A stretch of 64,000 bases of DNA. Source: Corallococcus carmarthensis. GTDB lineage: Bacteria; Myxococcota; Myxococcia; Myxococcales; Myxococcaceae. The position numbers were made by a program, and so were the translations under genes. The first letter of the stretch is position 1, and every line of letters starts with the position of its first letter. The DNA lies in the NCBI RefSeq assembly GCF_003611695.1, contig NZ_RAWE01000004.1:62001-126000 (forward strand), written 5' to 3'. Under the pieces are notes generated by a model that ran no database searches, was not told where the DNA came from, and worked only from the letters and a program-made list of their open reading frames with translations. Below are positions 268 to 19,762 of the stretch, one piece after another.

Positions 268-308
268 GCGCCCCCGTGGACATCGCATTCACCGCCACGT
301 CTCTTCCT

Positions 309-313
309 GGAGG
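309..313 (+). promoter_or_regulatory. Ribosome binding site (GGAGG) that decides the start at 321
   Basis: GGAGG lies 7 nt before ATG 321. The longer in-frame alternative, GTG at 276, has no comparable Shine-Dalgarno sequence, so 321 is preferred. Confidence 0.6.
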
Positions 314-320
314 ATTCCTG

Positions 321-875: not shown

Positions 876-965
876 ATGCGAACGACCTTACGAAACCTCC
901 ACACGGAACAAGTCACGAGCGTCCCGGCCGGGGTGGCGTGCGCGTGTTGTTGCCAGCGGGTGTGA
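876..965 (+). CDS. 29-aa peptide with poly-Cys C-terminus (leader peptide or peptide precursor)
   Basis: ATG 876 to TGA 963-965 encodes 29 residues ending in VACACCCQRV. GGAG at 863-866 sits 9 nt before the ATG, a good ribosome binding site. Four of five consecutive codons (939-953: TGC GCG TGT TGT TGC) are Cys, two being TGT, which is disfavoured in such GC-rich DNA. A rare TTA Leu codon lies at 888-890. The stop is 5 bp before the ATG of the carrier-protein gene at 971, which has no clear ribosome binding site of its own, so translational coupling is likely. Poly-Cys upstream ORFs are known as cysteine-responsive attenuators in mycobacteria. A downstream operon with a Cys-activating NRPS and a cysteine desulfurase fits that role. 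A ribosomal precursor peptide is the alternative, but I see no YcaO, radical SAM or lanthionine-type enzyme. The function is inference. Confidence 0.6.
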   Translation: MRTTLRNLHTEQVTSVPAGVACACCCQRV

Positions 966-970
966 GACCT

Positions 971-1240
971 ATGAACAAGGACGCTTTCATCAGGACGCTG
1001 AGCGAAGCCCTCCAGCAAGAGCCCTCCCAGCTCGACCTGTCGAAGAGCTTCATCGACAACGGTGGTTACTCCCTCGCCGCGGTCCGTTGGATCGATTTGA
1101 TCTACCCCGCCACGGGGGTGGTCATGAACTTCTTCGACGTGATGGGCACGGAGCCGCTGCAAGCCCTGCTCGACGCGCCGCCGGAAGGAGCCTCCGCCGG
1201 TGCGGAAGCGTCCTCCGACGTGGATGAGGGCGTCATATGA
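971..1240 (+). CDS. Acyl/peptidyl carrier protein
   Basis: An 89-residue stand-alone carrier domain. The motif 'SFIDNGGYSLAAVRW' places the phosphopantetheine-accepting Ser at residue 34, in the G-G-x-S context typical of NRPS carriers. The last 20 residues are a flexible Ala/Gly/Ser/acidic tail. ATG 971 is chosen because an in-frame GTG at 938 lies inside the Cys-rich ORF and has no ribosome binding site. ATG 971 itself has no clear one either, suggesting coupling to that ORF, which stops 5 bp earlier. The stop overlaps the start of the large NRPS by ATGA (4 bp). In pathways such as clorobiocin, a free carrier next to a KAS III-like protein receives an acyl group shuttled from another PCP. 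The same role is inferred here; its cargo is unknown. Confidence 0.75.
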   Translation: MNKDAFIRTLSEALQQEPSQLDLSKSFIDNGGYSLAAVRWIDLIYPATGVVMNFFDVMGTEPLQALLDAPPEGASAGAEASSDVDEGVI

Positions 1241-4200
1241 CGTCCGCCGCCCCAACGCAGGCCCGTGCGACGGGCCCTGAGACCGCGCCCGCGGCCCTCC
1301 CGGCCGAGGCCGAAGAGGAGCTGCTGACCGCGGCGACGTACGACCTCGTCGAGGAGCTGAGCGAGGCCGGTGTCGAGCTGAGCGTGAAGGAGGGACGCCT
1401 GGCGTTCAAGGCGCCACCGGGGCGGCTCACCGACGCGCTGAAGGAGCGCATCCGCGAGCAGAAGGAAGCGCTGCTCGCGCTCCTGGGGCCTGACGAAGCC
1501 GTGCGGGCCCGCGCCCGCACGCTGCCGCTGTCGGAGCTTCAGCAGTCCTACTGGCTGGGCGAGGCCGGCACGCAGGGCATCGCCGGGGCAGGGTGTTGGT
1601 ACAACGGCTTCTCCGTGGAGACGCTGGACCTGGAGCGTCTCCAGGCCGCCCTCTCCGCGCTGTTCGCGCGTCACGACTCGCTGCGGATGACGGTGGGTCC
1701 GGACGGGCGCGGGCGGCTCCTGGAGCACGTGGGCCCCTTCCCGCTGGAGTACCAGGACCTGCGCGCGCTTCCGGCCGCGGAGGTGGAGCGGGAGCTGGAG
1801 CGCACGCGGACCACGATGAGCCGGCCCCGGAGCGGCGCGGAGGTCTGGCCGCTCTACCGGATGTGCGTGCAGCGGACCGCGGAGCGCTTCTACGTCCACG
1901 TCGAGGGCCGGCTCCTGGTGGGCGACGCGACGTCCTGGTTCCTCTACGTCGAGGAGCTGCGGAAGCTGCTGGAGGATCCCGCGCGCACGGACCTGCCCGC
2001 GCCGGGACGGCTGGCGAGCCTGATCCTGCGCCGCTTCCGGCAGCTCGTGTCGGCCGACTATCAGCGCGCCCGGCAGTACTGGGCGGGGCGTGCGATTCCG
2101 CCGTCGCCCGCGCTCCCGGTGCGCACGCTCGCCGAGGGCGGAGGCCGCATCCGGCGGTTGATCGCGGACCTGCCCGAAGCGGAGGCCACCGTGCTGACCG
2201 CCCGGGCCCGGGAGTTCGGGCTGACGCTGGACAACGCGCTGATGGGTGCGTTCGCGCTGGTGCTGGCGGAGTGGGCGCAGGCGCCGGACTTCAGCATCAA
2301 CGTCCTGCACGGCGGAGGGCGGCACCTCGGCCTGCCGCTCGGTCACTTCGGCGGCATCGTGCGCCTGGAGCTGAACGTCCGGCGCGAGGCGTCCTTCGCG
2401 GACCTGGCGGGCGCCATCCGTCAAAGGCTCGCCCTGGACATGGGCTATGCGTCCGTGGACGGCGTGACGGTGCAGCGGATCGCGGCGCGCCAGTCCGGCA
2501 CTCCGGTCCGCGCGGGCGTGGTCGCCTATTCGAGTGGCCTGGCCCTGGGCCGGTCCGACACGGAGATTGGCCTGGCGCAGCTGGGGTGGAAGCCGGAGGG
2601 CGCCAGCATCCAGAGCCCGGGCGTCCTCATCGACCAGCAGGTCTTCCGGACGCTGGACGGCCTCCGCTTCCACTGGGACATCGACGCGGACACGCTGTGT
2701 CCCGGCGTGGGCGAGGCGATGTTCGAAACCTTCCTGGCCGGCGTCCGCCGTCTGGCGGAGGCGCACGATTGGAAGACGCCCCTGCGGATGGGGCTGCCCC
2801 CAGCGCAGCAGGCCTCCCAGGCTCGCGCCAACGCCACGTCGGCGGAGCGCTCCGTCCACCGGCTCCACTCCCTGCTGGAGCGGCAGGTCCGCGGGCATCA
2901 CGGCGCGGCGGTGGTGACGCGCGAGCGGACGCTGTCGTTCCAGGAGCTGGGACAGCGCGCGAGCGGCGTGGCGAACGCCCTTCGTGCACGTGGCGCGAAG
3001 CCGGACGTCCCGGTGGCCATCGTCGCGAACAAGGGCTGGGAACAGGTGGTCGCCGCGCTCGGCACCGTCATGGTCGGCGCCCCCTACGTGCCCCTGGATC
3101 CGTCCTGGCCGTCCGCGCGCCTGTCGGCGGTCCTCTCCGCCGCTGATGTGGGAATGGCGCTGTGTGACGCCGCTGGCGCCGAGGCCCTTGCCCGGGAGGG
3201 CGGTGGTGCGGCCCTCGTGAGCCTCCGCATCGACGCGGTGCCCCTGGCCTCCATGGACGCGGCGGGTCCGGACACCGGCCAGCTGGCGTACATCCTCTTC
3301 ACGTCGGGTTCGACGGGAGAGCCCAAGGGCGTCGCCATCTCGCATGACGCGGTGGCCACCACGCTCGAGGACATCCAGCGCCGCTTCGGCGTGGGCCCGG
3401 AAGACTGCGTGCTGGGCGTCTCGCACCTGCACTTCGACCTGTCGGTCTTCGACATCTTCGGCGTCCTGGGCGCGGGAGGCCGGCTGGTGCTGCCTCCGCC
3501 CGCCAGCCACCCGGATCCCGCGGAGCTGTTCCCGCTGGTGCAAGAGCACCGCGTGACGGTCTGGAACACGGTGCCGGCGATCATGGAGATGCTCGTCGAG
3601 TACATGGAGTCGCGGGGCCTCCAGGCGCCGTCGCTGCGGCTCGCGCTCCTGTCGGGAGACTGGATCCCGGTCACGCTGCCCGCACGGATCCGCTCGGTGT
3701 TCCCGAACGCGCGCGTGGTGAGCCTGGGCGGCGCCACCGAAGCGTCCATCTGGTCGAACGCGTTCGAGGTCCAGGACGTTCCGGCCACCTGGTCCAGCAT
3801 CCCCTACGGCTTCCCGCTGGCGAACCAGCAGCTGCTGGTGTTGCACCCGGGCGTGGGCACACCCTGCCCGGACTGGGTCGAGGGCGAGCTGGCCATCGCG
3901 GGGCAGGGGCTCGCGGAGGGCTACTGGCGTGCACCGGAGAAGACGGCGGCGGCCTTCGTCACGCATCCAGAGACCGGCCAACGGCTCTACCTCACCGGCG
4001 ACCGCGCCCGCCGCTGGCCCGACGGCAACATCGAGTTCCTGGGCCGGACCGACGGCCAGGTGAAGATCAGCGGCTACCGGGTCGAGCTGGGTGACGTCAC
4101 CGCGGCGCTGAAGAAGTGCCCGGCCGTGGACAAGGCCGTGGTCGTGGCCGTGGGGCCGCGTGAGCACCGCTGGCTTGCCGCCTTCGTCACGCCCACGGGC

Positions 4201-5397
4201 GCGGAGCCGCCAGAGCTGCGGGACATGCTGTCCGCGCTGCTGCCTTCGTACATGGTGCCGCGCCGGATCCACTGGCTGCCGGAGCTGCCGCTCACCGCCA
4301 ACGGCAAGGTGGACCAGGCGAAGCTCCGCGAGCTCGCGCTGCTCGACCAGCCCGTCACGCTGGCGCCGCGCACGCCCGCCGAGCACCTGATGGCGGAGCT
4401 GTGGTCGCAGATCCTCGGCCGCCCCATCCGCGACACGCAGGTGAGCTTCTTCGAGGTGGGCGGTGAGTCGGTGCTGGCGGTCCGGCTCGCGAACGCCATC
4501 GAGCACCGCACCGGCGTGCGCCCCGAGCTGGCGGAGCTGCTGCGGACCGCGACCATCGAGGGCATGGCGCGGGTGATGGGCGGCCAGCGCGGTGGGGCGC
4601 ACAGCGCGCTCGTGCGCATGCAGCGGGGCGCGGAGGGCGCGCCCACCGTCGTGTGCATCCACCCCGTCGGCGGCACCGTGTACTGCTACCGCGAGCTGGT
4701 CGACCTCCTGGGCAAGCGGTTCACCGTCGTCGGGCTCCAGTCGCTGGGGCTCGAACGCGGGGACCTGTCGCTGCGCGACCTGGCGGCTCACTATGTCGAA
4801 CAGCTGGACAGCGCGGGGCTCAAGCCCGACGTGCTCTTCGGCTGGTCCCTGGGCGGCGCCGTCGCGCTGGAGGTCCAGCGCCGCCTCGAAGTCCGGGGAA
4901 CGCGCCGGGTCGCCGCCGTGCTCGTCGACCCGTGGGTCCGGAAGCCCGCCGCTTCCAAGCCGGAGATGAAGGCCCTGGAGGCGGCGTTCATCCGCGACGT
5001 CCTGCGCGGCGCCGGCACGCTCAGCCTGGAGGCGCTGGCCGAACGGCTGCGGACGCGCTCGCTGCCGGAGGTCGTCCAGTCCCTGGGCGGCGACGGACTG
5101 GCACAGCGTGCGCGCGGCTCCGAGCTCGCGGCGCTGTTCGAGCAGTTCCGCCAGAACACCTCGGCGCTGCTCGGCTACGACCCGCCCGACGGTCCCGTCG
5201 ACGCGGACGTGTGGTTCGCCGACGCGCAGCGGCCCGAGGACTTCCCGCACCTCCAGCCGTTGGACCAGTGCCGTCAGGTGCCGCGCGTCCACCGCGTGCC
5301 CGCGGATCACTACGGCATCATGGAAGGTGACGCGTTGAAGCGCATCGCCGCGGCCTTGCGGAGCCGGTTCGAAGTCACCCAGGAGGCCGCGTCATGA
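1237..5397 (+). CDS. NRPS: TubC docking - Cy-like condensation - A (Cys) - PCP - thioesterase
   Basis: 1386 residues. A TubC-type N-terminal docking domain spans about residues 26-85. The condensation domain (about 92-520) is of the heterocyclization class: 'PLSELQQSYWLG', 'YWAGRAIPPSPALP' and 'SPGVLIDQQVF' match Cy-specific cores, and no HHxxxDG is present. In the DxxxxDxxS core the first Asp is replaced by Arg ('RLLVGDATS'). The A domain (about 540-1040; P-loop 'TSGSTGEPKG', A10 'TANGKVD') reads DLFNLSLIWK by hand alignment to GrsA, one residue from the Cys code DLYNLSLIWK. A PCP ('FFEVGGES') lies near residue 1075. A thioesterase follows with GWSLGG (Ser1204) and a C-terminal His1358. Expected job: load Cys, acylate and possibly cyclise it, then release. 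It overlaps its neighbours by 4 bp on both sides, so the operon is translationally coupled. Whether a thiazoline forms is uncertain because of the Asp loss. Confidence 0.88.
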   Translation: MTSAAPTQARATGPETAPAALPAEAEEELLTAATYDLVEELSEAGVELSVKEGRLAFKAPPGRLTDALKERIREQKEALLALLGPDEAVRARARTLPLSELQQSYWLGEAGTQGIAGAGCWYNGFSVETLDLERLQAALSALFARHDSLRMTVGPDGRGRLLEHVGPFPLEYQDLRALPAAEVERELERTRTTMSRPRSGAEVWPLYRMCVQRTAERFYVHVEGRLLVGDATSWFLYVEELRKLLEDPARTDLPAPGRLASLILRRFRQLVSADYQRARQYWAGRAIPPSPALPVRTLAEGGGRIRRLIADLPEAEATVLTARAREFGLTLDNALMGAFALVLAEWAQAPDFSINVLHGGGRHLGLPLGHFGGIVRLELNVRREASFADLAGAIRQRLALDMGYASVDGVTVQRIAARQSGTPVRAGVVAYSSGLALGRSDTEIGLAQLGWKPEGASIQSPGVLIDQQVFRTLDGLRFHWDIDADTLCPGVGEAMFETFLAGVRRLAEAHDWKTPLRMGLPPAQQASQARANATSAERSVHRLHSLLERQVRGHHGAAVVTRERTLSFQELGQRASGVANALRARGAKPDVPVAIVANKGWEQVVAALGTVMVGAPYVPLDPSWPSARLSAVLSAADVGMALCDAAGAEALAREGGGAALVSLRIDAVPLASMDAAGPDTGQLAYILFTSGSTGEPKGVAISHDAVATTLEDIQRRFGVGPEDCVLGVSHLHFDLSVFDIFGVLGAGGRLVLPPPASHPDPAELFPLVQEHRVTVWNTVPAIMEMLVEYMESRGLQAPSLRLALLSGDWIPVTLPARIRSVFPNARVVSLGGATEASIWSNAFEVQDVPATWSSIPYGFPLANQQLLVLHPGVGTPCPDWVEGELAIAGQGLAEGYWRAPEKTAAAFVTHPETGQRLYLTGDRARRWPDGNIEFLGRTDGQVKISGYRVELGDVTAALKKCPAVDKAVVVAVGPREHRWLAAFVTPTGAEPPELRDMLSALLPSYMVPRRIHWLPELPLTANGKVDQAKLRELALLDQPVTLAPRTPAEHLMAELWSQILGRPIRDTQVSFFEVGGESVLAVRLANAIEHRTGVRPELAELLRTATIEGMARVMGGQRGGAHSALVRMQRGAEGAPTVVCIHPVGGTVYCYRELVDLLGKRFTVVGLQSLGLERGDLSLRDLAAHYVEQLDSAGLKPDVLFGWSLGGAVALEVQRRLEVRGTRRVAAVLVDPWVRKPAASKPEMKALEAAFIRDVLRGAGTLSLEALAERLRTRSLPEVVQSLGGDGLAQRARGSELAALFEQFRQNTSALLGYDPPDGPVDADVWFADAQRPEDFPHLQPLDQCRQVPRVHRVPADHYGIMEGDALKRIAAALRSRFEVTQEAAS

Positions 5398-6335
5398 GGA
5401 TCGGTGCGTTCACATGGCGGCTCGGGGAGCGGCGGGAGATCGACTCGCTGCCCGAGCTCGCGTCGGATGCGCGAAGGCTCCAGCGCATGAAGAAGCACGG
5501 GCTGGCCTGCTTCATGGAAGCGACCCAGTCCCGCGAAAGCCTGATGGTGGAGGCGCTCCAGGCCTCGGTGCGCGAGTCGGGGATGGATCCGCTGTCCATC
5601 GACACCGTCATCTACGCGACCGGCACCTTCGATGACCGCGAGGACGCCACGCTGATGCCCGTGGTGCTGCGCCGCTGTGGCCTGCTGAACGCGCGCCCCA
5701 TCGGGGTCTTCCTGGGCTTCTGCGCGAACTTCACCTACGCCTTCGAGGCCATCGAAGGGCTGCGCGCGCTGGGCCGCTCACGCAACGCGCTGCTGCTCTT
5801 CAGCGACGCGTACCCCGCGGGACGCACGCGGCTCATCCGCCAGGACTCCGCCGTCGGCAGTGACGGCGTGGCGTGCTGTGTCGTGTCGGACGCGCTGGAG
5901 CGCGGCTACGACGTGGGGCCCGTCCGGCATCACTACGACGCCCAGGCCACCGAGCACCTGGAGACGGGGGACATCGTCTCGTACGTCCGTGCGTACTCGA
6001 ACGGCGTGCGCACGTCCGCGGAGGCCGCGCTGGCGGCGGCGGAGGTGGGCGCGGCCGAGTGCCGGTGGCTGGTGACGGCGAACTTCAACCGCTCGGTGCT
6101 GCGCAACATCTCGGAGCTCTGTGGCATCGGGGTGGACCGCATCTACGACCGGAACATCGGCGAGCTGGGCCACTGCAGCTCCGCGGATCAGTTGATTGCC
6201 CTGGGCCAGCTCCTGGAGTCGGACCTTCCGGCCGCCACGCCGGTGCTGGTGACGGGGCCCGCGGACACCGTCTGGGGCGCGGCCGCGATGCGCGTCGTCC
6301 GGCCCGCGCCCACGCCCACGCGGGAGGCCCGGTGA
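5394..6335 (+). CDS. KAS III-like (FabH-fold) acyltransferase/ketosynthase 1
   Basis: 313 residues with thiolase fold. Cys110 in 'LGFCANFTYAF' occupies the FabH nucleophile position. The FabH 'HQAN' segment is 'ANFN' here: the catalytic His is lost and the Asn kept. At the FabH 'GNTS' Asn position there is His260 ('LGHCSSADQLI'). The second KAS III-like protein of the operon (9352-10263) shows the same rearrangement, so it is a subfamily trait and not decay. Canonical FabH decarboxylates malonyl-ACP using His and Asn; without them, acyl transfer between carrier proteins or onto a hydroxyl or amine (as for CloN2- or CerJ-type relatives) is more plausible. ATG 5394 overlaps the NRPS stop by 4 bp, and the next gene overlaps the stop by GTGA. 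Substrate unknown. Confidence 0.75.
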   Translation: MRIGAFTWRLGERREIDSLPELASDARRLQRMKKHGLACFMEATQSRESLMVEALQASVRESGMDPLSIDTVIYATGTFDDREDATLMPVVLRRCGLLNARPIGVFLGFCANFTYAFEAIEGLRALGRSRNALLLFSDAYPAGRTRLIRQDSAVGSDGVACCVVSDALERGYDVGPVRHHYDAQATEHLETGDIVSYVRAYSNGVRTSAEAALAAAEVGAAECRWLVTANFNRSVLRNISELCGIGVDRIYDRNIGELGHCSSADQLIALGQLLESDLPAATPVLVTGPADTVWGAAAMRVVRPAPTPTREAR

Positions 6336-7900
6336 CCATGCTGCTCTCCGACTTCCTCCTCCAGCACGGCAGGACCGCGCCCGAGCGCGACGCATTGGTG
6401 CACGACGGCGTCCGCTGGGACCACGCCCGGCTGGCCGCCGAGGTCGCCCGTTACCGGACCGCGCTCGCGGAGCTGGGCCTGGGACGCGGTGACCGCGTCG
6501 TTTCGCGTATGGAGGCCGACCCCGACGCCATCGCGTTGCTCATCGCCACCATGGCGCTGGGGGCCGCGTACGTGCCCGTGGCGCCGGAGCTTCCCCCAGC
6601 GCGCTTCGAGGCCATCCTCGCGCGGCTGGAGCCCGCCGCAGTCGTCGTGTCGAGCGACCTGCGCGACGCGCCGGGCGTTCCCCCTGGCACGCAGGTGGGG
6701 CCGCTGGTGGTGGCCCGCACGGCCCATCCCGTGAGCGGCGACACCACCGCGCCGGGCCCGGAGGACGCGGCCTACATCATCATGACGTCGGGCTCCACGG
6801 GACAGCCCAAGGGCATCGTGATGACCCACGGCGCCGCGGTGAACACGCTGCGCGGGTTCAGCGAGCTTGGCGTCCCGTCCTCCGCGCGCGTCGGGACCAT
6901 CTCTCCGCTCCACTTCGACTTCGCCATGTTCGACGTAGGCATGGCGCTCGGCAACGGGGCCACGCTGGTCCAGGTGCCGCGCATGCTGGCGTATCAGCCC
7001 CGGGGACTCGTCGAGTACCTGGACGAACACCGGGTGACCCAGATGCACTCCGTGCCGTCCGTGTGGCGTCCGCTCCTCACGGAAGGGGACGCGTCGCTGC
7101 TCGGGGGCCTGCGCCACCTGGACACCATCCTCTACGCCGCGGAGAGCTTCCCGGCGAAGGACGTCCACACCCTCCAGGGCTGGCGGCCGGACCTGCGCAT
7201 CGTCCAGTGCTTCGGCCACTCGGAGTCCATCGGCTGCTGCTTCAAGACGTTCGCCAACCCGGCGGCCACCTTCAAGGGCCGGCTCTCCCTGGGAGTGGCG
7301 CTGCGCGGCACGGAGATGTTCGCGCTGGACGAAGCCGGCCGGGAGATTGGAGTGGGGGAGGAGGGCGAGCTGTACGTGCGCGGGCCGCACCTCTTCCGAG
7401 GCTACTGGCGCGACGAGGCGCAGACCCGTCAACGGCTGGTGCCGGATCCGCGCACCGGTGAGGGCGCCGTCTTCCGCTCCGGCGACGTGGTGACGCGCGA
7501 CGAGCAGGGCGAGTTCTATTTCATCGGCCGGCTGGATCATCAGGTGAAGGTCGGTGGCAACCGCGTCGAGCTCTCCGAGATTGAACACGTCGTGGAGGGA
7601 GACCCTGACGTCGCGGCGGCGGTGGCCGTCGTCCCGGCGGACGAGGCGCGGGCCACCCTCACGTGCTTCGTCGTCGTGCGTGGCTCGAAGCCGTGGAACG
7701 AGCTGATGGTCCGCCTGCGCTCGCGCATGTCGGCCGCGATGCCCCGCTACATGGTCCCGCGTCACCTGCGGCGGCTCGAGTCCTTCCCGGTGCTGTCCAA
7801 CGGCAAGGTCGACCGGCTGCGACTCGCCCAGATGGCCGCCGAACCGGAGGCCCCGGCGCCGCTCCGGACGCCTCGCAACCCATCCCTGGAGGTCCCATGA
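6332..7900 (+). CDS. Free-standing adenylation enzyme 1 (amino/aryl acid-AMP ligase)
   Basis: 522 residues from GTG 6332 (GGGAGG at 6321-6326; GTGA overlap with the previous stop). ATG 6338 is a possible alternative. It is a complete A domain without fused PCP: P-loop 'TSGSTGQPKG', 'FRSGDVV' (A7-like), 'GRLDHQVKVGGNRVE' (A8) and 'LSNGKVDR' with the A10 Lys. The hand-read pocket code is about D-F-F-H-L-A-C-G-C-K, which matches no substrate I know; the starting Asp suggests an alpha-amino group. A 4-bp ATGA overlap joins it to a free PCP (7897-8166) and then a P450. This order suggests it loads that PCP and the P450 oxidises the tethered residue, as in known A-PCP-P450 beta-hydroxylation trios. 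The substrate assignment is open. Confidence 0.85.
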   Translation: MTMLLSDFLLQHGRTAPERDALVHDGVRWDHARLAAEVARYRTALAELGLGRGDRVVSRMEADPDAIALLIATMALGAAYVPVAPELPPARFEAILARLEPAAVVVSSDLRDAPGVPPGTQVGPLVVARTAHPVSGDTTAPGPEDAAYIIMTSGSTGQPKGIVMTHGAAVNTLRGFSELGVPSSARVGTISPLHFDFAMFDVGMALGNGATLVQVPRMLAYQPRGLVEYLDEHRVTQMHSVPSVWRPLLTEGDASLLGGLRHLDTILYAAESFPAKDVHTLQGWRPDLRIVQCFGHSESIGCCFKTFANPAATFKGRLSLGVALRGTEMFALDEAGREIGVGEEGELYVRGPHLFRGYWRDEAQTRQRLVPDPRTGEGAVFRSGDVVTRDEQGEFYFIGRLDHQVKVGGNRVELSEIEHVVEGDPDVAAAVAVVPADEARATLTCFVVVRGSKPWNELMVRLRSRMSAAMPRYMVPRHLRRLESFPVLSNGKVDRLRLAQMAAEPEAPAPLRTPRNPSLEVP

Positions 7901-9308: not shown

Positions 9309-9351
9309 CCCAACGCTCGCGAACTCCGCCAGCGCACACGAGGAACCCCCA

Positions 9352-10263
9352 ATGATTTTCGTCAACGGCATTCGTTATGTCCTGGGTGAGTCCAGGCCCA
9401 TCAGCAGCGTCCCCGAACTGGGAGGCGACGAGGCAGCGATCAAGTTCCTGGCGGACCGGGGCTTCAAGAACTACCGGCACTCGACGGTGGAGGCGTGGGA
9501 GCTGGGCGTGGACGCCGCGCGCCAGGCCATGCAGGCCGCGGAGGTCACCGTCGCGGACATCGACCAGGTCATCTACGCGTCGGTGAGCTCCCGGACCCCC
9601 GCGCACGGCGACCTCTCCATCGGCCTGTTTGCCCACCGCATGGAGATGCTGACCACGCCCATCACCGGCGTCTGCTTCGGTGAATGTACCAACGCGATGC
9701 TCGGCATCGAGCACGCCGCCATGCTGCTGGAGACTGGGAGGGCGCGCACCGTTCTGCTGGTCTCCACCGACGTCGCATGTAGCAAGGAACAGCGCGTCAC
9801 CACGGGACAGACCATCTGTTCCGACGGTGCCGCCGCGTGTGTCATCACGCGTGAGCCGCGAGGCTCGGCCGTTCCTTCCTTCGAGCTGCTCGGCTTCGCC
9901 AAGGCGTTCCACCACCTGTCGCGCGCAGGCATGTCCAACCCCGCGAAGAGCTTCCGCGACATCTGCGGCGCCGCCATGCGGTGCAAGAAGACGGTGCTGG
10001 CGAAGATCGACAAGCCGCTGGCGAAGTGGATCCCCAACACGGCGAACAGCGAAGTGGCCGGCGCGCTCGCGAGCGTGCTGGGCATCCCCGCGAGCATGTT
10101 CTACCTGGACAACCTCCCCGAGTACGCGCACGTCTTCTCCACGGACCAGCTGATCAACCTGGTGGACTGGGCGACGCGCTCGAAGGCGCCCTCCGGCTCC
10201 GTCGTCGCGGGGCTCGCCACGGGAACCTCCGGCAGCTCCGTCGCGGCCTGGCGGGTCGTCTGA
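9352..10263 (+). CDS. KAS III-like (FabH-fold) acyltransferase/ketosynthase 2
   Basis: 303 residues. Cys112 in 'FGECTNAMLGIE' aligns with the FabH nucleophile. The 'HQAN' segment reads 'NTAN', so the catalytic His is replaced by Asn. His260 ('YAHVFSTDQLI') occupies the FabH Asn274 region, exactly as in the protein at 5394-6335. GAGGAA precedes ATG 9352. The two proteins are clearly diverged from each other, suggesting separate acyl donors or acceptors rather than a simple duplicate. Expected to act on carrier-bound thioesters in the cytosol, either transferring the oxidised residue from the PCP at 7897 or joining it to a second carrier. A true condensing activity is less likely given the missing His/Asn pair, but not excluded. 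Confidence 0.75.
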   Translation: MIFVNGIRYVLGESRPISSVPELGGDEAAIKFLADRGFKNYRHSTVEAWELGVDAARQAMQAAEVTVADIDQVIYASVSSRTPAHGDLSIGLFAHRMEMLTTPITGVCFGECTNAMLGIEHAAMLLETGRARTVLLVSTDVACSKEQRVTTGQTICSDGAAACVITREPRGSAVPSFELLGFAKAFHHLSRAGMSNPAKSFRDICGAAMRCKKTVLAKIDKPLAKWIPNTANSEVAGALASVLGIPASMFYLDNLPEYAHVFSTDQLINLVDWATRSKAPSGSVVAGLATGTSGSSVAAWRVV

Positions 10264-10297
10264 CGCGAAGCGCCCGCTGACTCCGGTGAGCCCTCCG

Positions 10298-11881
10298 ATG
10301 CAACGTCCGAACGCCCAGTCCGTCCGGCCCCTGGCCGAGACCTTCGCGCACATCGCCGCGGCCCGTGGGGACCATCCCGCGGTCGTGGGGCCACGCGAAG
10401 CGGTGTCCTATGCCGCGCTCCAGCGGAGCGTGGTGTCGCTGTCCAGCGGGCTCGTGGGCCGGGGGCTGGAGGGCGCGGTCATCGGCATGCTCCTGCCGAG
10501 CGACCTGGCCTACGTGGCCACCATGCTGTCCATCCTGGACCGGCGAGGCGTCTTCGCCCCCATGGATGCGGCATGGCCGGAGGCCCGGCTGCGCTCCGCG
10601 CTGGAGATGACGCGGCCGGCGGCCCTGGTCATCACGCCGGAGCAGGCCGAGCGTGTCAGCGGGCTCGTAGCCACCCTGGGCTCACCGTGCGAGCTGCTGG
10701 TGGTGGAGGGCCGGGCGGCGGAGGGCTTCCGCTTCAACACCGTGAGGGCCGCGGCGGAGGCACATCCGCAGCACAATGACCTCACGGCGCCGTGGACGGA
10801 GGACTCGCTCTACCTCGTCTACACGTCGGGCTCCACGGGCACGCCGAACGCCGTCGAGGGCTCCCACCTGTCGCTCGCCGTCTTCATCGAGTGGCAGGCG
10901 CGCACCTTCGAGGTCGGTTCGGAGTGCCGTGTCTCCCAGCTCGCGCCCACCACGTTCGACGTGAGCCTGCGGGACTTCTTCCTGCCGCTGTGCACGGGCG
11001 GCACGCTCTACATCCCGGCCGCGGGCACCCGCTACCATCCCATCCTGTTTCCGCGCTGGGTGGCCGAGCACCGCATCAATCTGATGCACTCGGTGCCTTC
11101 GGTGTTCAAGCTGGCGTCGGAGGTCAGCTGGACGAACGCGAAGCTGAAGGGTTCGTTCGACTCCCTCCGCAAGCTGTTCCTGTCCGGCGAGCGCCTCTAC
11201 GTGGAGGACGCCCGGCAGCTCCAGGCGCACCTCTCCCCGGATGCGCAGCTGATCAACTTCTACGGGCCCAGTGAGTGCACGCTCATCAAGACGTGCTTCG
11301 TCGTGCCCCGGGATTGCAGTGGCCTGGAAGGCGACGTGGTGCCGCTGGGCCGGCCCATCGAGGGCTGCGAGGTCCGGCTGGACGGCGGCACTGATGCGCA
11401 GTCCGGCGAGCTGGTCCTGGAGTCGGAGTTTCTCGCCAAGGGTTACTACCGGAACCCGGAGCTGACGGCCGCGAAGTTCTCCAGCGTGGCGCGGCCGGAC
11501 GCACCCAGGCTGCGCGCGTACCGCACGGGAGACCTGGGCTACCGCGATGGCCAGGGCCTGCTCCACTTCACCGGGCGCAAGGACCATCAGATCAAGGTCA
11601 ACGGCAACCGGGTGGAGCTGGGCGAGGTGGAGCACTGCCTCCGGCGCATGCCCGGCGTCAGCGGCGCGGTGGTCGTGGCCAGCGACTCGCGTCAGGGCGC
11701 GGATCCCATCCTGTCCTGCGTCTACGCGAGCGACGGCGACCTCGCCGAGGACCAGGTCCGCGCGCACCTGCTCCAACACCTTCCCAAGTACATGGTCCCC
11801 ACGAATGTCAGGCGGATGGGCGAACTGCCGCTGCTGACGAACGGCAAGGTCGACCGCAAGCAGATCGCCTCACTTTTCTAA
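10298..11881 (+). CDS. Free-standing adenylation enzyme 2, P-loop Lys missing
   Basis: 527 residues from ATG 10298 (GGTGAG 7 nt upstream); GTG 10286 is a possible alternative. It is a complete A domain: 'YTSGSTGTPNAVEG' (A3), 'FYGPSECT' (A5), 'YRTGDLG' (A7), 'GRKDHQIKVNGNRVE' (A8) and 'LTNGKVDRK' (A10, catalytic Lys present). The A3 loop has P-N-A where P-K-G is usual, so the phosphate-loop Lys is lost. The pocket code reads roughly D-V-R-H-F-S-F-L-I-K, not one I recognise; an Arg at position 239 would put a positive charge in the pocket and could favour an acidic or oxidised substrate. It is followed after 17 bp by a PCP-C protein, whose N-terminal carrier is the likely partner. Confidence 0.85.
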   Translation: MQRPNAQSVRPLAETFAHIAAARGDHPAVVGPREAVSYAALQRSVVSLSSGLVGRGLEGAVIGMLLPSDLAYVATMLSILDRRGVFAPMDAAWPEARLRSALEMTRPAALVITPEQAERVSGLVATLGSPCELLVVEGRAAEGFRFNTVRAAAEAHPQHNDLTAPWTEDSLYLVYTSGSTGTPNAVEGSHLSLAVFIEWQARTFEVGSECRVSQLAPTTFDVSLRDFFLPLCTGGTLYIPAAGTRYHPILFPRWVAEHRINLMHSVPSVFKLASEVSWTNAKLKGSFDSLRKLFLSGERLYVEDARQLQAHLSPDAQLINFYGPSECTLIKTCFVVPRDCSGLEGDVVPLGRPIEGCEVRLDGGTDAQSGELVLESEFLAKGYYRNPELTAAKFSSVARPDAPRLRAYRTGDLGYRDGQGLLHFTGRKDHQIKVNGNRVELGEVEHCLRRMPGVSGAVVVASDSRQGADPILSCVYASDGDLAEDQVRAHLLQHLPKYMVPTNVRRMGELPLLTNGKVDRKQIASLF

Positions 11882-11898
11882 ATCTCCTGGAGCACGCC

Positions 11899-13536
11899 TT
11901 GTCCACCGACACAGCGCAACGTCTTGCAACGCTTTGCAAAGAGATTCTGAGGATCGACCACGTCCGGCCGGAGGCCTCCCTGGTGTTGCAGGGCGCGTCC
12001 TCCATGCGCCTGATGCAGCTGGTCGCGCGCCTCTACGAGGACTTCGACGTCATCGTGGACCTCAGCGAGGTCATGGGCGAGGTGACGCTGGATTGGATCG
12101 CCGCCATGGTCGAGGAGCGCCGCGCGGCGGACGGCGGCGGTGCGGCGCCCACGCCGGCCCTGGCGGAGGAGGCCCGGCGTCCCGCGGGAGGGCCCGTGCC
12201 CCTCAGCGAGCTCCAGCTCGCCTTCTGGGAGATGCGCCGCTACGCGCCGGCGATGGCCGCGTACAACGAGGGCGTCAGCCACCTGGTGAAGGGCGACCTG
12301 GACCTGGCCGTCTGCAAGAAGGTCCTGGTGGAGCTGGTCGCGCTCCAGCCCGCGCTGCGCAATGCCTACCTGGAGGTGGACGGCGTCCCGGTGCAGCGCG
12401 AAGTGCCCATGGCGGAGATCGAATCGTCCCTCAAGCTGGAGGTGACGGACCTGTCTGCGCATCCGGATCCGATGGCCGAGTGCGCCGCGCAGCACCGGGC
12501 CATGTACGCGACCCGGTTCGACCTGTCCGCGCCGCCATGCTTCCGCGTCGCCGTGTGGAAGGTGGGTGAGCGGCGCTGGGTGGTGTCGTGGGTCGTGTAC
12601 CACATCGTCACGGACTGGTGGGCGGTGGACGTCCTGCGCCGCGGCGCCGCGAAGCTGTACCGCGCGCTGATGGCGGCGGGAGTCCCGGAGTCGCGCCCGT
12701 CCGCGGTGCCGCAGGATCCGCACGCCGGCACGCGCTTCACGGCGGACGACGAGGCCTGGTGGTTGGCGAAGTTCCAGACGCCGCCGCGTCCGTTGACGCT
12801 GTCCAGCCGTCCCCGGCCGCTGATCAAGAGCTACGCCGGTGAGATGTACCTCCAGGAGCTCCAGGGCATCTCCGCCAGCCGGATGGAAGGCCTGCGCGAG
12901 CGGCTGGCCGTCACGATGTCCAGCCTCACCTACGCGGCGTTCTCGCTCCTGCTCGCGGCGCTGAGCGGCGAGGACGACGTGACGGTGGGCGTGCCGTTCC
13001 TCAACCGCCAGCACGCCGACGTGCAGGACACGGTGGGCCTGTTCGTCAACAGCCTGCCGGTGCGCATGAAGGCGGAGCACGGAGTTGCCGCGGGCGACTA
13101 CATCCGCGCGTGTCACGGCGAGCTGCTGGAGGCCTTCCGCCACGGGCGCTATCCGTCGTTCCGGCTGATGCGCCAGCTCAAGCTGCCGACGCGCTTCAAC
13201 CGGGCCCCGCTCTACGACCACCTCTTCAGCTACTACGAGAACACCGTCGTGGACGTCGTCTGCGACCAGACGAAGCTCGCGGTGACGGAGATCGAGCTGC
13301 CGCGCGGCACGAGCAAGTACGACCTGAGCCTGTTCGTGACCCGGACCGGGGACCGGCTCGACTGCAAGGCGGAGTACACCACCGCGCTCTTCTCCCAGGA
13401 GGAGACCGCCGCCTTCGTCTCCCACTACCAGGCCCTCCTCGAACGGCTTCTGACCGACTCCAGCGTGACGGTGGGCGAGCTCCTCGCCACGGTGCGCGCG
13501 CGCGTCCAGCACTCCCTTCCCCAGCAGCGGGCCTAG
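11899..13536 (+). CDS. NRPS didomain: PCP - condensation
   Basis: 545 residues from TTG 11899 (GGAG at 11889-11892, 6 nt upstream). Residues about 1-75 form a carrier domain with 'LQGASSMRLMQLV', Ser35 being the likely phosphopantetheine site. From about residue 95 ('PLSELQLAFWEM') to the end is a condensation domain with 'YHIVTDW' (His235): the catalytic second His and the Asp of HHxxxDG are kept, the first His is Tyr and the Gly is Trp. 'DTVGLFVNSLPVRM' is a typical C-domain core. No A domain is fused; the neighbouring free A enzyme (10298-11881) probably loads this PCP. The C domain probably joins an upstream acyl group to the PCP-bound unit, or passes it to the Cys NRPS, whose docking domain needs a partner. 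Confidence 0.85.
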   Translation: MSTDTAQRLATLCKEILRIDHVRPEASLVLQGASSMRLMQLVARLYEDFDVIVDLSEVMGEVTLDWIAAMVEERRAADGGGAAPTPALAEEARRPAGGPVPLSELQLAFWEMRRYAPAMAAYNEGVSHLVKGDLDLAVCKKVLVELVALQPALRNAYLEVDGVPVQREVPMAEIESSLKLEVTDLSAHPDPMAECAAQHRAMYATRFDLSAPPCFRVAVWKVGERRWVVSWVVYHIVTDWWAVDVLRRGAAKLYRALMAAGVPESRPSAVPQDPHAGTRFTADDEAWWLAKFQTPPRPLTLSSRPRPLIKSYAGEMYLQELQGISASRMEGLRERLAVTMSSLTYAAFSLLLAALSGEDDVTVGVPFLNRQHADVQDTVGLFVNSLPVRMKAEHGVAAGDYIRACHGELLEAFRHGRYPSFRLMRQLKLPTRFNRAPLYDHLFSYYENTVVDVVCDQTKLAVTEIELPRGTSKYDLSLFVTRTGDRLDCKAEYTTALFSQEETAAFVSHYQALLERLLTDSSVTVGELLATVRARVQHSLPQQRA

Positions 13537-13539
13537 GCC

Positions 13540-14790
13540 ATGCACAAATCCTTTGGAAACCTCGATGCGGCCTGGAAGGAAGCCTCCTTCGCGTACAAGA
13601 GCGTTCCGTTCTTCCGGAACCGGCCCTCCCTGACCCCCGCGGCCTCGCCCGCGGCGGGCTTCCTCGACATCCCGATGACGAGCAAGCCGGACTACCGGAA
13701 GAACTTTCCGGCGGGAGTCCTGGCGGATGGCCGCTCGGTCAACGACCCCTACGTGCAGCGGTATCAGAGCTCGGGGACGAGCGGCGACCGGCTGGTGAGC
13801 GTCATCCACGCGTTCAAGCTCGCGGACCGGATGGCGAACTGCCTCTCCGTGAACAAGAGCCTGAGCTTCCTCCTGGATGAGCCGAAGATCCGGATGTGCC
13901 GCTACGCGGCGCCCAACTGTTCGGACGTCGAGTGCAGCAACCCGAACACGCGCATGGAGGACCGCATCCTCCAGGACGGCACGCTGGTGCTGCCCGTCTA
14001 TCACGACCTGCTCACGACGCCGGAGCCCATGCTCAAGCGCGCGTTCGACGAGCTCCACTCGTACGAACCGAACGTCTGGTACGTGGACCCGATGCACCTG
14101 TCGGTGCTGATCAAGAAGGCCCGCGCGTCCGGCTGGAAGTTCGACATGAACCGCAAGGTGTCGGTGCTGCTGACCTACACCTTCGCGACGCAGGCGTTGC
14201 TGCGGCAGCTGGCCACGCTGTGCGAGGGCCACTTCCCGGTGGCCTCCGTGATGGCGATGTCCGAGTTCGGTTTCGTGGGGCTCGCCTGCGAGGAGGGCAA
14301 CCTCCACCTCAACGACAAGGACTACTACCTCGAGTTCATCAAGATGGAGGCGCCGGACGACCGCGACGACCTCTGGGAGCTGGTCATCACGAGCGTGGGG
14401 GACAAGCTGTGTCCGCACATCCGCTACCGCACCAATGACATCTACCGGCTCCTGGGACAGTGCAAGTGCGGCAGCGCGATGCCCGCCGTGGCCTTCCAGG
14501 GGCGCGTGAAGGACCTGGTGAGGCTGCCCAGCGGCCGCTACGTCACGCCCGGCGAGCTGGATGCGCTGGTGGGCGCGCCCCGGTGGATCGACATCTTCCA
14601 GCTCACCTTCCAGAAGGCCGGCAACTTCATCTTCCGCTACAGCGGTGAGGTCGAACCCAACGCGGACGAGCTGGCCACGCTGCGCTCGAAGCTGGAGGAC
14701 CTGCTGGAGTCGAAGTCACTCCGGATGGAGGCGGTCCACTACTTCCCGTTCGAGCGCGGGGGCAAGTTCCAGTTGGTCAGGACGGGGTGA
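13540..14790 (+). CDS. PaaK/F390-synthetase-like AMP-dependent ligase
   Basis: 416 residues, three bases after the PCP-C stop. The nucleotide loop is 'YQSSGTSGDR' (S-S-G-T-[ST]-G). 'HIRYRTNDIYRL' and 'FQGRVKDLVRL' correspond to A7/A8 of the ANL superfamily, but the overall pattern is that of phenylacetate-CoA ligase/coenzyme F390 synthetase relatives, not an NRPS A domain. A C-K-C-G motif (near 14461) precedes A8, and further Cys residues cluster near 13890-13940; such Cys sets can bind a metal in relatives. 'GGKFQLV' near the end may hold the A10-type Lys. Probable role: activate a carboxylic acid, probably aromatic or acyl, as adenylate and pass it to a carrier such as the one at 971. Substrate unknown. 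Confidence 0.75.
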   Translation: MHKSFGNLDAAWKEASFAYKSVPFFRNRPSLTPAASPAAGFLDIPMTSKPDYRKNFPAGVLADGRSVNDPYVQRYQSSGTSGDRLVSVIHAFKLADRMANCLSVNKSLSFLLDEPKIRMCRYAAPNCSDVECSNPNTRMEDRILQDGTLVLPVYHDLLTTPEPMLKRAFDELHSYEPNVWYVDPMHLSVLIKKARASGWKFDMNRKVSVLLTYTFATQALLRQLATLCEGHFPVASVMAMSEFGFVGLACEEGNLHLNDKDYYLEFIKMEAPDDRDDLWELVITSVGDKLCPHIRYRTNDIYRLLGQCKCGSAMPAVAFQGRVKDLVRLPSGRYVTPGELDALVGAPRWIDIFQLTFQKAGNFIFRYSGEVEPNADELATLRSKLEDLLESKSLRMEAVHYFPFERGGKFQLVRTG

Positions 14791-14832
14791 GGGCAGGGTG
14801 TCCGGCGTGATTCCACACTTGGGTGAGATGCG

Positions 14833-16062
14833 ATGATGGCTTTCGGCTCCAATGACTTGATCACCTCCGGCGCGGTGCGGGAGGACTTCCCCATCCTCAC
14901 GCGACAGGTGGATGGCGAGCGGTTCGTCTACCTGGACAGCGCTGCGACGGCGCTGAAGCCGCGGTCGGTGATTGACGCGGTGACGCGCTACTACACGGAG
15001 TGCACGGCGAACATCCACCGCGGGCGCCACCGCCTGTCGGAGGAGGCGTCCGACCTCTACGAGGAGGCGCGCGGCAAGGTGGCGCTGATGGTGGGGTGCG
15101 CGAGCAACGAGGTCATCTTCGTGCGCAACACCACGGAGGGCCTGAACCTGGCGGCCTCCTGCATGGGGCTGAAGAAGGACGACCTGGTCGTCGGGTTCCT
15201 GGACGCGCACCACTCGCAGCTGCTGCCGTGGATGCGGGGCGCGAACTACCAGGTGGTCCGCCAGGGCCCGAACTGGCAACCCGACCTGGACCACTACGCG
15301 GAGCTGTTGCGGCGGCGGCCCAAGGCCGTGGTGGTGACGCATTGCTCGAACGTCACGGGCGGCTTCCTGCCGCTGGAGACGATCTCGAAGATGGCGCACG
15401 ACGCAGGGGCGCTGGTGGTGGTGGACGCGGCCCAGTCCGTGGCGCACTGCCGCCTGCGGTTCACCGAGTCCAACATCGACTTCCTCGCGCTGTCGGCGCA
15501 CAAGATGCTGGGGCCGTCCGGCATCGGCTGCCTGGTGGGACGGGCTTCGCTGCTGCGGGACGCGGAGGCGGTGCTGGTGGGCGGCGGCGTCGTGGACTTC
15601 ACCACGCTCGAGTCCTTCCAGTACCGGAAGATCCCCCACAAGTTCGAGGCGGGAACGCCGGCCATCGAAGCCGCCTTCGGCTTCGCCGCGGCCATCGACT
15701 ACCTGGACATGGTGGGCCTGGAGCGCATCCAGGCGCACGACCACGAACTGTCGCGGGCGTTCCTGGAAGGGCTGAAGCGCAGGCCCCGGCTCAAGCTGCT
15801 GGGGCCCGACGTGGCGGAGGCCCGCGCCCCCATCTTCAGCCTCTACGTGGACGGCCTGGAGGACCTCTCCGACGTGAGCCGCGCGCTGAGCGACGCGCAT
15901 GGCGTCATGTGCCGCAACGGGCACCTGTGCGCGCAGCCTCTGGTGGACCACTACACCAGCGGCGAGGTCCTGCGGATGTCCGCCTATCTCTACAACACCG
16001 TCGAGGAAGTCGAGTACGCGCTGAGCGCCCTGGACGAAGTGGTCCGGGTCTACCAGCGGTAG
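14833..16062 (+). CDS. SufS-type cysteine desulfurase (class V aminotransferase fold)
   Basis: 409 residues. 'LALSAHKMLGPSGIG' carries the PLP Lys (Lys224). 'RNGHLCAQPL' carries the catalytic Cys366 in the R-x-G-H-x-C context of SufS/CsdA. 'YLDSAATALKP' and 'NIHRGRHRLSEEAS' are also family signatures. The enzyme takes sulfur from L-cysteine as a persulfide, leaving alanine. No SufE, IscU or Fe-S assembly gene is nearby, so it is probably a pathway-dedicated sulfur donor (as in some thiotetronate and thio-natural-product clusters) and not housekeeping. It lies 42 bp after the PaaK-like gene and 18 bp before the flavoprotein gene, same strand. A Cys C-S lyase or aminotransferase role on a carrier-bound residue is an alternative. 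Confidence 0.85.
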   Translation: MMAFGSNDLITSGAVREDFPILTRQVDGERFVYLDSAATALKPRSVIDAVTRYYTECTANIHRGRHRLSEEASDLYEEARGKVALMVGCASNEVIFVRNTTEGLNLAASCMGLKKDDLVVGFLDAHHSQLLPWMRGANYQVVRQGPNWQPDLDHYAELLRRRPKAVVVTHCSNVTGGFLPLETISKMAHDAGALVVVDAAQSVAHCRLRFTESNIDFLALSAHKMLGPSGIGCLVGRASLLRDAEAVLVGGGVVDFTTLESFQYRKIPHKFEAGTPAIEAAFGFAAAIDYLDMVGLERIQAHDHELSRAFLEGLKRRPRLKLLGPDVAEARAPIFSLYVDGLEDLSDVSRALSDAHGVMCRNGHLCAQPLVDHYTSGEVLRMSAYLYNTVEEVEYALSALDEVVRVYQR

Positions 16063-16080
16063 CGGAGGAGGGGACACGCG

Positions 16081-16647
16081 ATGAACAACATCTACGAGGA
16101 GATCAGCCCCAAGCTGCGCGACTTCATCGCGAACCAGAAGATGTTCTTCGTCGCGACGGCTCCGCTGTCCGCGGACGGGCACGTCAATCTGTCGCCCAAG
16201 GGCCACGACTCGCTGCGGGTGCTCGATGCGCACCGCGTCGCCTACCTGGACCTGTCGGGGAGCGGGGTGGAGACCATCGCGCACCTGCGGGAGAACGCCC
16301 GCATCTGCATCATGTTCTGCGCCTTCGACGGGCCGCCGAAGATCATCCGGCTGCACGGACGGGGGCGCGTGTTGACGCCGGAGCAACAGCCGGAGTTCGG
16401 CGAGCTCCTGTCGCTCTTCCCCGACCTGCCAGGGGGGAGGGCCATCATCGTGGTGGACGTGACCCGCATCGCCGGCTCCTGCGGGTTCTCCATCCCGCGC
16501 TACGAGTTCGTGGAGCAGCGCGACCAACTGGTGAAGTGGGTCAACAAGAAGGGACCGGACTGGTTGGCTGACTACCGCAAGAAGAACAACGCGGTGAGCA
16601 TCGACGAGCTGCCCGCCATCGATCCCGACCCGGAATCCGGCGACTGA
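16081..16647 (+). CDS. Pyridoxamine 5'-phosphate oxidase-family flavoprotein (split beta-barrel)
   Basis: 188 residues. The order 'KLRDFIANQKMFFVATAP', 'DGHVNLSPKG', 'ENARICIMFCAFDGPPKIIRLHGRGRV' fits the PNPOx-like FMN/F420-binding split-barrel fold. Its last third ('VKWVNKKGPDWLADYRKKNN') is a typical helical tail of this uncharacterised subfamily. It is the last gene of the operon, 18 bp behind the desulfurase. It may oxidise or reduce a biosynthetic intermediate, for example thiazoline to thiazole; that is speculation. General PLP salvage to serve the desulfurase is another option, though the PNPOx substrate residues are not recognisable. Confidence 0.75.
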   Translation: MNNIYEEISPKLRDFIANQKMFFVATAPLSADGHVNLSPKGHDSLRVLDAHRVAYLDLSGSGVETIAHLRENARICIMFCAFDGPPKIIRLHGRGRVLTPEQQPEFGELLSLFPDLPGGRAIIVVDVTRIAGSCGFSIPRYEFVEQRDQLVKWVNKKGPDWLADYRKKNNAVSIDELPAIDPDPESGD

Positions 16648-17744: not shown

Positions 17745-17749
17745 TTCGC

Positions 17750-17790: not shown

Positions 17791-17863
17791 AAGCCTTGTC
17801 GTCGTCACAACGCCTGAGCACGGGCGGCCGTACCCGCATCTCCTCGCACGAAGGAGCCTCACC

Positions 17864-19660: not shown

Positions 19661-19673
19661 TGCCTTGAGGCTC

Positions 19674-19700: not shown

Positions 19701-19712
19701 TGCAGACCTGTA

Positions 19713-19756: not shown

Positions 19757-19762
19757 TTCTTC

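Follow-up and report, generated by a model that had tools for sequence, protein, structure and literature searches.

A Corallococcus operon with a PaaK-like ligase and a cysteine desulfurase probably forms the distal half of a hydrazinoacetate gene cluster of the azaserine type

Introduction

Which pathway is served by an operon that joins a split nonribosomal peptide synthetase (NRPS) to two KAS III-like proteins and a cysteine desulfurase? The question is raised by a stretch of 64,000 nucleotides from Corallococcus carmarthensis (referred to here as the window; positions 62001-126000 of contig NZ_RAWE01000004.1, denoted C444, + strand), a myxobacterium with a genome of 10.8 Mb. The initial annotation described the operon as a possible undescribed pathway starting at position 876, with a cysteine-activating NRPS, KAS III-like shuttles, a dedicated sulfur donor and a small thiazoline- or thioacid-like product. 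Using translation and profile searches we recovered all of the named genes in the order given and on the + strand (window 971-16647; Table 1), with operon-like 4-base overlaps at four adjacent gene pairs. The E-values, these overlaps and the conservation of the gene set in C. interemptor, C. exercitus and Thalassolituus rule out a chance assembly. The genes that identify the pathway, however, lie on the other side of the window edge.

Results and Discussion

The operon probably continues an upstream hydrazinoacetate cluster

Position 876 is not the start of the cluster, which extends 5′ beyond the window, from about 53-54 kb of C444, on the same contig and strand. Homologues of azaserine biosynthesis genes were located there by tblastn with Thalassolituus, Sinorhizobium and Streptomyces genes as queries (limit 1e-3; rows above 45 bits reported), backed by Pfam and an own-genome search, and neighbouring homologues overlap or are separated by at most 48 bases. 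A lysine N6-hydroxylase, a methionyl-tRNA synthetase (MetRS)-like protein with a cupin, and a DAO-like oxidoreductase, corresponding to the AzsL, AzsN and AzsM types, are all present at C444:57936-62267, while a GNAT succinyltransferase, an adenylating enzyme, a carrier and a C45 peptidase of the AzsS, AzsP, AzsQ and AzsT types are found at C444:54463-57939. The AzsM homologue ends at window position 267, 8 bases before the start of the second GNAT gene of the cluster.

In the azaserine (azs) pathway, hydrazinoacetate (HAA) is made from lysine and glycine, succinylated by AzsS, loaded by AzsP onto AzsQ, desuccinylated by AzsT and oxidized by AzsF, after which AzsD transfers the hydrazone acyl group to a carrier and the Cy domain of AzsO joins it to serine (PMC10445470). 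The same HAA front end is used in the triacsin and dob pathways (PMC13061610). Based on the upstream genes, the operon in the window is most likely the distal half of an azaserine-type HAA cluster (rough probability 0.82), and its assignment to the class of pathways that proceed through HAA and the hydrazone acyl thioester (HDA) appears still more secure. The cluster would extend the azaserine-type pathway by extra amino acid units and a conserved ligase-desulfurase pair, and the class assignment is strong. Individual parts had been compared with clorobiocin and thiotetronate biosynthesis; the upstream genes show that the nearest system is the HAA logic of azaserine and triacsin, which could not be recognized from the window, since its diagnostic genes are found a short way beyond the edge. 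A clorobiocin-type pyrrole shuttle was also considered and set aside, as no acyl-CoA dehydrogenase was found and HAA genes are present.

Table 1. Genes of the C. carmarthensis cluster. Coordinates prefixed C444 refer to the contig, all others to the window; percentages are amino acid identities.
Feature	Coordinates	Strand	Remarks
MFS gene	C444:53050-54234		
AzsP-like adenylating enzyme	C444:54463-55932	+	tblastn 40-49%
Carrier (AzsQ counterpart)	C444:55981-56223	+	PP-binding
AzsS-like GNAT	C444:56228-56842	+	HAA N-succinyltransferase homologue; tblastn 49-57%
AzsT-like C45 peptidase	C444:56836-57939	+	tblastn 38-52%
MetRS-like hydrazine synthetase homologue	C444:57936-59570	+	tblastn 27-30%
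Lys N6-hydroxylase, AzsL-like	C444:59567-60835	+	tblastn 38-40%
Cupin	C444:60826-61176	+	
AzsM-like FAD (DAO-like) oxidoreductase	C444:61167-62267	+	tblastn 30-35%; end = window 267
GNAT acetyltransferase (second GNAT)	276..818	+	P0031; Pfam Acetyltransf_1; 42% to Thalassolituus GNAT2 (L099:15016-15522)
Stand-alone carrier directly 5′ of NRPS	971..1240	+	DNGGYS serine motif; no Pfam match; 48% in Thalassolituus
AzsO-like NRPS	1237..5397	+	TubC docking, altered Cy/condensation, A (Ser or Cys), PCP, TE
KAS III-like transferase 1 (KAS1)	5394..6335	+	AzsD-type altered active site
Free adenylating enzyme A1	6332..7900	+	closest solved relatives annotated as beta-aminoacyl-ACP synthetases
Stand-alone acyl carrier protein (ACP2)	7897..8166	+	GVLESFDL motif; no Pfam match; 41% in Thalassolituus
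Cytochrome P450	8154..9308	+	heme, ExxR and I-helix motifs intact
KAS III-like transferase 2 (KAS2)	9352..10263	+	AzsD-type altered active site
Free adenylating enzyme A2	10286..11881	+	code read as DVRHFSFLI
Peptidyl carrier protein-condensation (PCP-C) didomain	11899..13536	+	C motif YHIVTDW; second His and Asp retained
PaaK-like adenylating enzyme	13540..14790	+	PNCSDVEC motif; no Pfam match; weak NCBIfam and PDB PaaK matches
SufS-type cysteine desulfurase	14833..16062	+	TIGR01979; catalytic-Cys motif retained; paired with PaaK-like gene
PNPOx_N (FMN-type) flavoprotein P0012	16081..16647	+	Thalassolituus copy 58% identical, beside hydrazine genes

The cluster in other bacteria

The two halves also occur together elsewhere. 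The PaaK-like protein has its closest copies in C. exercitus (98%) and C. interemptor (96%). The HAA genes and the operon are arranged in the same way in C. interemptor (L048, L049), and C. exercitus (L050/L051/L053) contains the gene set split over separate contigs. Among 195 genomes of the phylum, full-length copies of KAS2 with at least 98% identity were found only in C. carmarthensis itself and in two congeners (G077, G078), the remaining matches being the KAS1 paralogues of those three and weak matches at the general KAS III level. Outside the phylum, Thalassolituus maritimus contains the whole operon (L055) at 41-68% identity in a rotated order (A2, PCP-C, PaaK, SufS, carrier, NRPS, KAS1, A1, ACP2, P450, KAS2), and in a sample of 369 genomes of its class it was the only one with a KAS2 match of that level. 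Further along its contig (L098, L099), on the same strand, are the lysine N-hydroxylase, the DAO-like oxidoreductase, a cupin/MetRS-like protein and PNPOx, together with an acyl-adenylating enzyme, a GNAT, the C45 peptidase, an EmrAB-type exporter (assigned by eye) and a second GNAT; a carrier gene sought between the adenylating enzyme and the first GNAT was not found. PNPOx, which is missing from the examined part of L055, was at one point taken for a chance neighbour, and this was dropped when it was found near the hydrazine genes on the same contig.

The hydrazine half has already been noticed in the genus, as Table 2 of one review lists Cor1-Cor2 of Corallococcus llansteffanensis as a hydrazine synthetase (PMC11705231). 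Cor1-Cor2 has two parts, like the separate MetRS-like and cupin genes here, and is listed without cluster or product. Literature searches found no description of this cluster, of a PaaK-SufS (PaaK-desulfurase) NRPS module, or of a Corallococcus, sulfur-linked or thiadiazole cluster of this kind. As the initial annotation held, the combination appears to be undescribed. The main texts of PMC10445470 and PMC13061610 mention neither Corallococcus, Thalassolituus nor a desulfurase; their supplementary cluster lists may include the present cluster.

Beside the A2 gene of Thalassolituus (L098:2580-5918) we noted, by eye, prephenate-dehydrogenase-like and aminodeoxychorismate-synthase-like genes, reminiscent of p-aminophenylalanine pathways; their homologues gave no match above 45 bits on the Corallococcus contig.

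The NRPS and the other adenylating enzymes

The NRPS shares 34% identity over 1143 amino acids with an AzsO-like protein of Sinorhizobium (tblastn). The adenylation (A) domain code, with positions set from GrsA numbering, reads DLFNLSLIW. In azs-like clusters it is DLFNMSLVW or, as read by eye, DLWNMSLIW, and it is DLYNMSLIW in Cys-type domains of a Vibrio group, from which the window differs at a residue that is also changed in the azs-like domains. In a tree of 25 A domains, the window and Thalassolituus fall inside a group with both Cys-type and AzsO domains. The A domain of AzsO was predicted to activate cysteine and actually loads serine (PMC10445470), which makes the A(Cys) label unsafe; the code fits the serine-loading AzsO family equally well, and the cysteine substrate is thus unsupported. 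We lean slightly towards serine rather than cysteine as the residue loaded.

A carrier gene directly upstream of the NRPS is also in keeping with this family. Its azs counterpart is the carrier domain at the end of AzsN, and an ancestral azs cluster has been proposed in which this carrier had a gene of its own immediately 5′ of azsO (PMC10445470), which is the arrangement seen in the window.

The free enzyme A1 is, by sequence, related to beta-aminoacyl-ACP synthetases: its best PDB matches (7dq5, 6m01, 5jjp and 5jjq) score 318-327 bits, the next molecule reaching 292. Beta-amino-acid adenylating enzymes include those of the HitB/IdnL1/CmiS6 type. HAA resembles a beta-amino acid in shape, yet a separate AzsP-like enzyme is present in the cluster. 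A2 gives generic amino acid A-domain matches, with an unusual code.

Points weighing against the assignment

Several findings weigh against an azaserine-type pathway. The identity of the MetRS-like protein is low (Table 1), and enzymes of this family can accept alanine, serine, glutamate or tyrosine in place of glycine (PMC11705231). Homologues of AzsE and of AzsF, an acyl-CoA dehydrogenase of the AzsF/Tri22/DobM type, were not found by tblastn at the limits given above, with two AzsF homologues as AzsF queries, in C444:20001-132912 or on the Thalassolituus contig, which leaves the oxidation to the hydrazone without an assigned enzyme. The P450 is distant from AzsG (30% over 139 amino acids) and is not its orthologue. 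In the Cy domain, Arg replaces the first Asp of the DxxxxD motif (RxxxxD) in the window, C. interemptor and Thalassolituus, and Ser stands at the place of Asn414 of AzsO; the canonical heterocyclization Asp is retained, in a Ser/Asp rather than a Thr/Asp pair. The domain thus shows neither the AzsO signature (DxxxxD with a Thr-to-Asn substitution) nor the canonical combination of DxxxxD and Thr/Asp, and judged by these residues it is neither canonical nor AzsO-type. In AzsO, the D193A exchange abolished activity (PMC10445470), and ester formation by the Cy domain predicted here is not assured. Finally, PaaK-SufS pairs mostly sit in clusters that lack HAA genes, as described below.

Of the genes left for the oxidation step, the flavoprotein P0012 is a fair candidate for converting HAA to the hydrazone, by analogy with PNPOx, which oxidizes a CH2-N bond.

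The PaaK-SufS pair

The PaaK-like and SufS-type genes form a real, conserved pair. We examined 43 loci, 40 of which came from a scan of genome contigs with the PaaK-like alignment and three from plasmids. A SufS-type match lies 3′ of the PaaK-like gene on the same strand in every one, within 400 bases in 42, with a TauD gene in between in the remaining one. An A-domain-like frame occurs in the examined flanks of 41 loci (all but L077 and L079), and a TauD-type oxygenase match, which the window operon lacks, at 28. Hydrazine genes of the HAA type were found in none of the examined flanks of these PaaK-SufS loci, so that Corallococcus and Thalassolituus are the only genera in which we have seen them combined with the pair. 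Pairs in the same gene order occur in NRPS clusters of Vibrio, Klebsiella, Nonomuraea, Streptomyces, Pseudoalteromonas and others, the window PaaK sharing 41-43% identity with those of Vibrio, Klebsiella and Nonomuraea and the window SufS 45-46% with those of Vibrio and Klebsiella.

The SufS-type protein matches TIGR01979 (E 4.9e-118; 394.5 bits, under the cut-off of 475.1) and has the class V pyridoxal phosphate (PLP) fold. Its catalytic Cys366 is retained in 43 of 44 aligned rows, the exception being a fragment, and PaaK Lys409 is likewise found in 43 of 44, whereas PaaK Cys132 and Cys250 occur in all 44. The invariance of the PaaK motif is partly due to ascertainment, since PNCSDVE was in the family search pattern; Cys132 and Cys250 lie outside it. 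Cys250 may be part of a PaaK metal site. Searches free of the pattern gave strong matches only in the two genomes on which they were centred (1 of 394 and 1 of 369) and, in addition, four weak generic PaaKs that lack both PNCSDVE and a SufS match in the examined flank. At L091 the pair is broken and was read in pieces. A tree of SufS sequences (omitting L053 and L054 as near copies) has long branches and neither rejected nor supported a single origin of the paired SufS proteins (one-clade test, p 0.475).

We consider it slightly more likely than not that PaaK-SufS inserts sulfur into the product; that it does so by adenylation of a carboxylate and persulfide sulfur transfer, giving a thiocarboxylate, is a possibility at somewhat less than even odds. 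Next to these stands the reading that the HAA pathway is the same but the pair adds no sulfur to the product, PaaK loading a carrier or SufS itself and SufS catalysing another PLP reaction or serving general sulfur supply. PaaK-like enzymes elsewhere do load carriers, the pairs accompany many different A-domain codes, and a catalytic Cys in SufS does not by itself reveal the acceptor. This reading must nevertheless account for the strict adjacency of the two genes and the conservation of the SufS Cys and the PaaK Lys, and a general supply needs no extra copy, since the own genome and eight of nine others checked contain additional SufS-type genes. It is a serious competitor, if the less probable one. 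The SufS-type protein is probably dedicated to the cluster, as had been claimed, being a conserved cluster gene.

A bolder and unlikely extension is that PaaK-SufS constitutes an undescribed, portable sulfur-insertion module of two enzymes in NRPS clusters that works without a sulfur-carrier protein, yields thiocarboxylates either free or bound to a peptide, and acts, in this cluster, on a hydrazone or diazo acyl group to give an N,N,S product. Such a product may be, for example, an alpha-hydrazono or alpha-diazo thiocarboxylate able to close to a 1,2,3-thiadiazole; alpha-diazo thiocarbonyls can close to 1,2,3-thiadiazoles.

Some loci with the pair were of interest in themselves. Plasmids of Vibrio coralliilyticus and Klebsiella pneumoniae (L045:2704-25542 and L046:648-22343) share a related polyketide synthase (PKS)-NRPS cluster with a DUF6817-type gene, TauD, PaaK, SufS and CysE, and the Vibrio coralliilyticus copy has an extra adjoining cysS gene, a possible sign of self-resistance. 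By eye, SbnA/SbnB-like (diaminopropionate) and Dpg-type genes were seen beside the pair in Pseudoalteromonas luteoviolacea (L085:5582-9796), and a threonine-dehydratase-like gene in Streptomyces alanosinicus (L087:8941-9948).

Comparison with known systems and alternative products

The azaserine clusters (azs/aza) of Streptomyces fragilis and Glycomyces harbinensis share with the window cluster the lysine N-hydroxylase, MetRS/cupin, FAD oxidoreductase, GNAT, adenylating enzyme, carrier, C45 peptidase, AzsD-type KAS III, docking-Cy-A-carrier protein NRPS, thioesterase (TE) function and a P450. In the window cluster, however, MetRS and cupin are separate genes, the carrier is free rather than fused to AzsN, the TE is fused to the NRPS, and there are two KAS III-like proteins as well as the extra A1/ACP2, A2/PCP-C, PaaK-SufS and PNPOx. 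With AzsL/M/N/S/T/P/Q/D/O-type genes present, the product might be expected to be azaserine itself or a close ester analogue of the O-diazoacetyl-serine type. We regard this as improbable: there is no room in azs for A1, ACP2, A2, PCP-C, the second KAS, PaaK or SufS, homologues of AzsF and AzsE were not found, and the Cy signature differs.

The triacsin (tri) and 4-diazo-3-oxobutanoate (dob) systems also carry HAA as a hydrazone on a carrier and include a KAS III-family protein, Tri13 (PMC10445470), but differ in having a PKS, which was not found in the window operon. No FDO diazo-forming enzyme of the Dob3 type was noticed among the annotated genes, in which no search was aimed at it. Thiotetronate biosynthesis (TlmS/StuS) likewise uses a cysteine desulfurase, with a thiouridylase-like partner (PMC5518548) where the present cluster has a PaaK-like ligase; no thiouridylase-like gene is among the annotated operon genes, again with no search aimed at it.

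Also very improbable is a self-contained split NRPS that makes a thiazoline- or thioacid-like product from cysteine, with the upstream hydrazine genes unrelated. The gene inventory with its SufS-type gene, an A code near the Cys type and a position within the clade that holds Cys-type A domains are compatible with it, but the hydrazine genes lie on the same strand only 8 bases upstream (267 vs 276), they accompany the operon in Thalassolituus despite the rearranged order, DxxxxD is without its first Asp in the Cy domain, and AzsO, predicted to use cysteine, loads serine (PMC10445470). A thiazoline-type module was rejected on the broken Cy motif. Of the product class first suggested, the thioacid part thus survives as a possible PaaK-SufS step, while the thiazoline-like part is unsupported.

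The KAS III-like proteins

Pfam and matches to PDB sequences place both KAS proteins in the KAS III family. In all ten aligned family rows (from the window, Thalassolituus, Rhodococcus, Sinorhizobium, Nostoc, Sphingobium and two Streptomyces) the FabH His is missing and a His stands at the place of the FabH Asn. The Cys columns of the ten-row alignment are misaligned, so Cys retention was taken from other sequences: the active Cys is kept in all eight rows of a separate alignment and in the Thalassolituus KAS2 sequence, while for Thalassolituus KAS1 only the stretch PLGVSLG, which does not take in the Cys, was read. The aligned residues were used in place of a tree, in which the family did not come out as one clade and which is weak, as several FabH outgroup rows came from wrong frames and only L015 and L020 read as KAS III. 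Streptomyces plasmid clusters found via KAS2 (L042 and L044/L106) have the azs gene order, which ties the window proteins by context to AzsD. AzsD, a KAS III-family protein, passes the hydrazone acyl group from one carrier to another in vitro, and Tri13 of triacsin is a KAS III-family transferase of the AzsD type (PMC10445470).

The altered active site fits acyl transfer without condensation, and both proteins are probably carrier-to-carrier shuttles for HDA or another acyl group, in agreement with the initial annotation. That they are true condensing enzymes joining an acyl chain to a malonyl unit is very unlikely: family membership and the active Cys would allow it, but the His for decarboxylative condensation is missing and Asn is changed to His in all ten rows, AzsD moves HDA between carriers in vitro (PMC10445470), and no PKS gene was found in the operon.

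AzsD-type KAS III proteins were also seen at L039, L041 and L043: in Rhodococcus and Nostoc they sit in plasmid clusters with an acyl-CoA dehydrogenase and NRPS parts and no annotated hydrazine synthetase nearby, and a Sphingobium copy has no annotated NRPS genes. Genes for a seryl-tRNA ligase and a VlmB-like protein adjoin the azs-like cluster of S. lavendulae plasmid pSA3239 (L106:10361-14001), possible hints of self-resistance and diazo chemistry.

Proposed pathway

What A1, A2, the P450, PNPOx and PaaK-SufS do, and what product results, we infer from the gene set. HAA would be made from lysine and glycine, succinylated, loaded onto a carrier, desuccinylated and oxidized to HDA, with the PNPOx-like flavoprotein or the P450 as a possible replacement for AzsF. 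One KAS III-like protein would then hand HDA to the 971-1240 carrier, the counterpart of the step in which AzsD serves the carrier domain of AzsN. The NRPS would load serine (or cysteine), the altered Cy domain would join HDA to it, and the TE would release the product. A1, ACP2 and the P450 may build another acyl unit, possibly derived from a beta-amino acid, to be transferred by the other KAS III-like protein, and A2 and PCP-C may add a further amino acid. PaaK would adenylate a carboxylate, to which SufS would give persulfide sulfur to form a thiocarboxylate or a derived product. The predicted end product is a small sulfur-containing peptide bearing a hydrazone or diazo group.

If this is true, a hydrazone pathway that extends the azaserine-type chemistry, known from triacsin, azaserine and diazoacetone, by amino acid units and sulfur occurs both in a genus of myxobacteria and in a marine gammaproteobacterium. 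The oxidation step becomes testable, with AzsF missing and a small flavoprotein and a P450 left as candidates, and a conserved ligase-desulfurase pair is flagged in many uncharacterized NRPS-bearing loci (43 here). Such gene-level leads are useful because reactive hydrazone and diazo metabolites readily escape ordinary isolation.

Neighbouring genes

The genes 3′ of the operon (window 16854-20740), which show no sign of pathway membership, encode an FGE-sulfatase-like protein, a di-haem peroxidase of the MauG type and a JmjC_2 protein. Most of the remaining window (about 24000-64000) is occupied on the - strand by two very large NRPS frames of 4118 and 8533 amino acids, which probably belong to a separate cluster.

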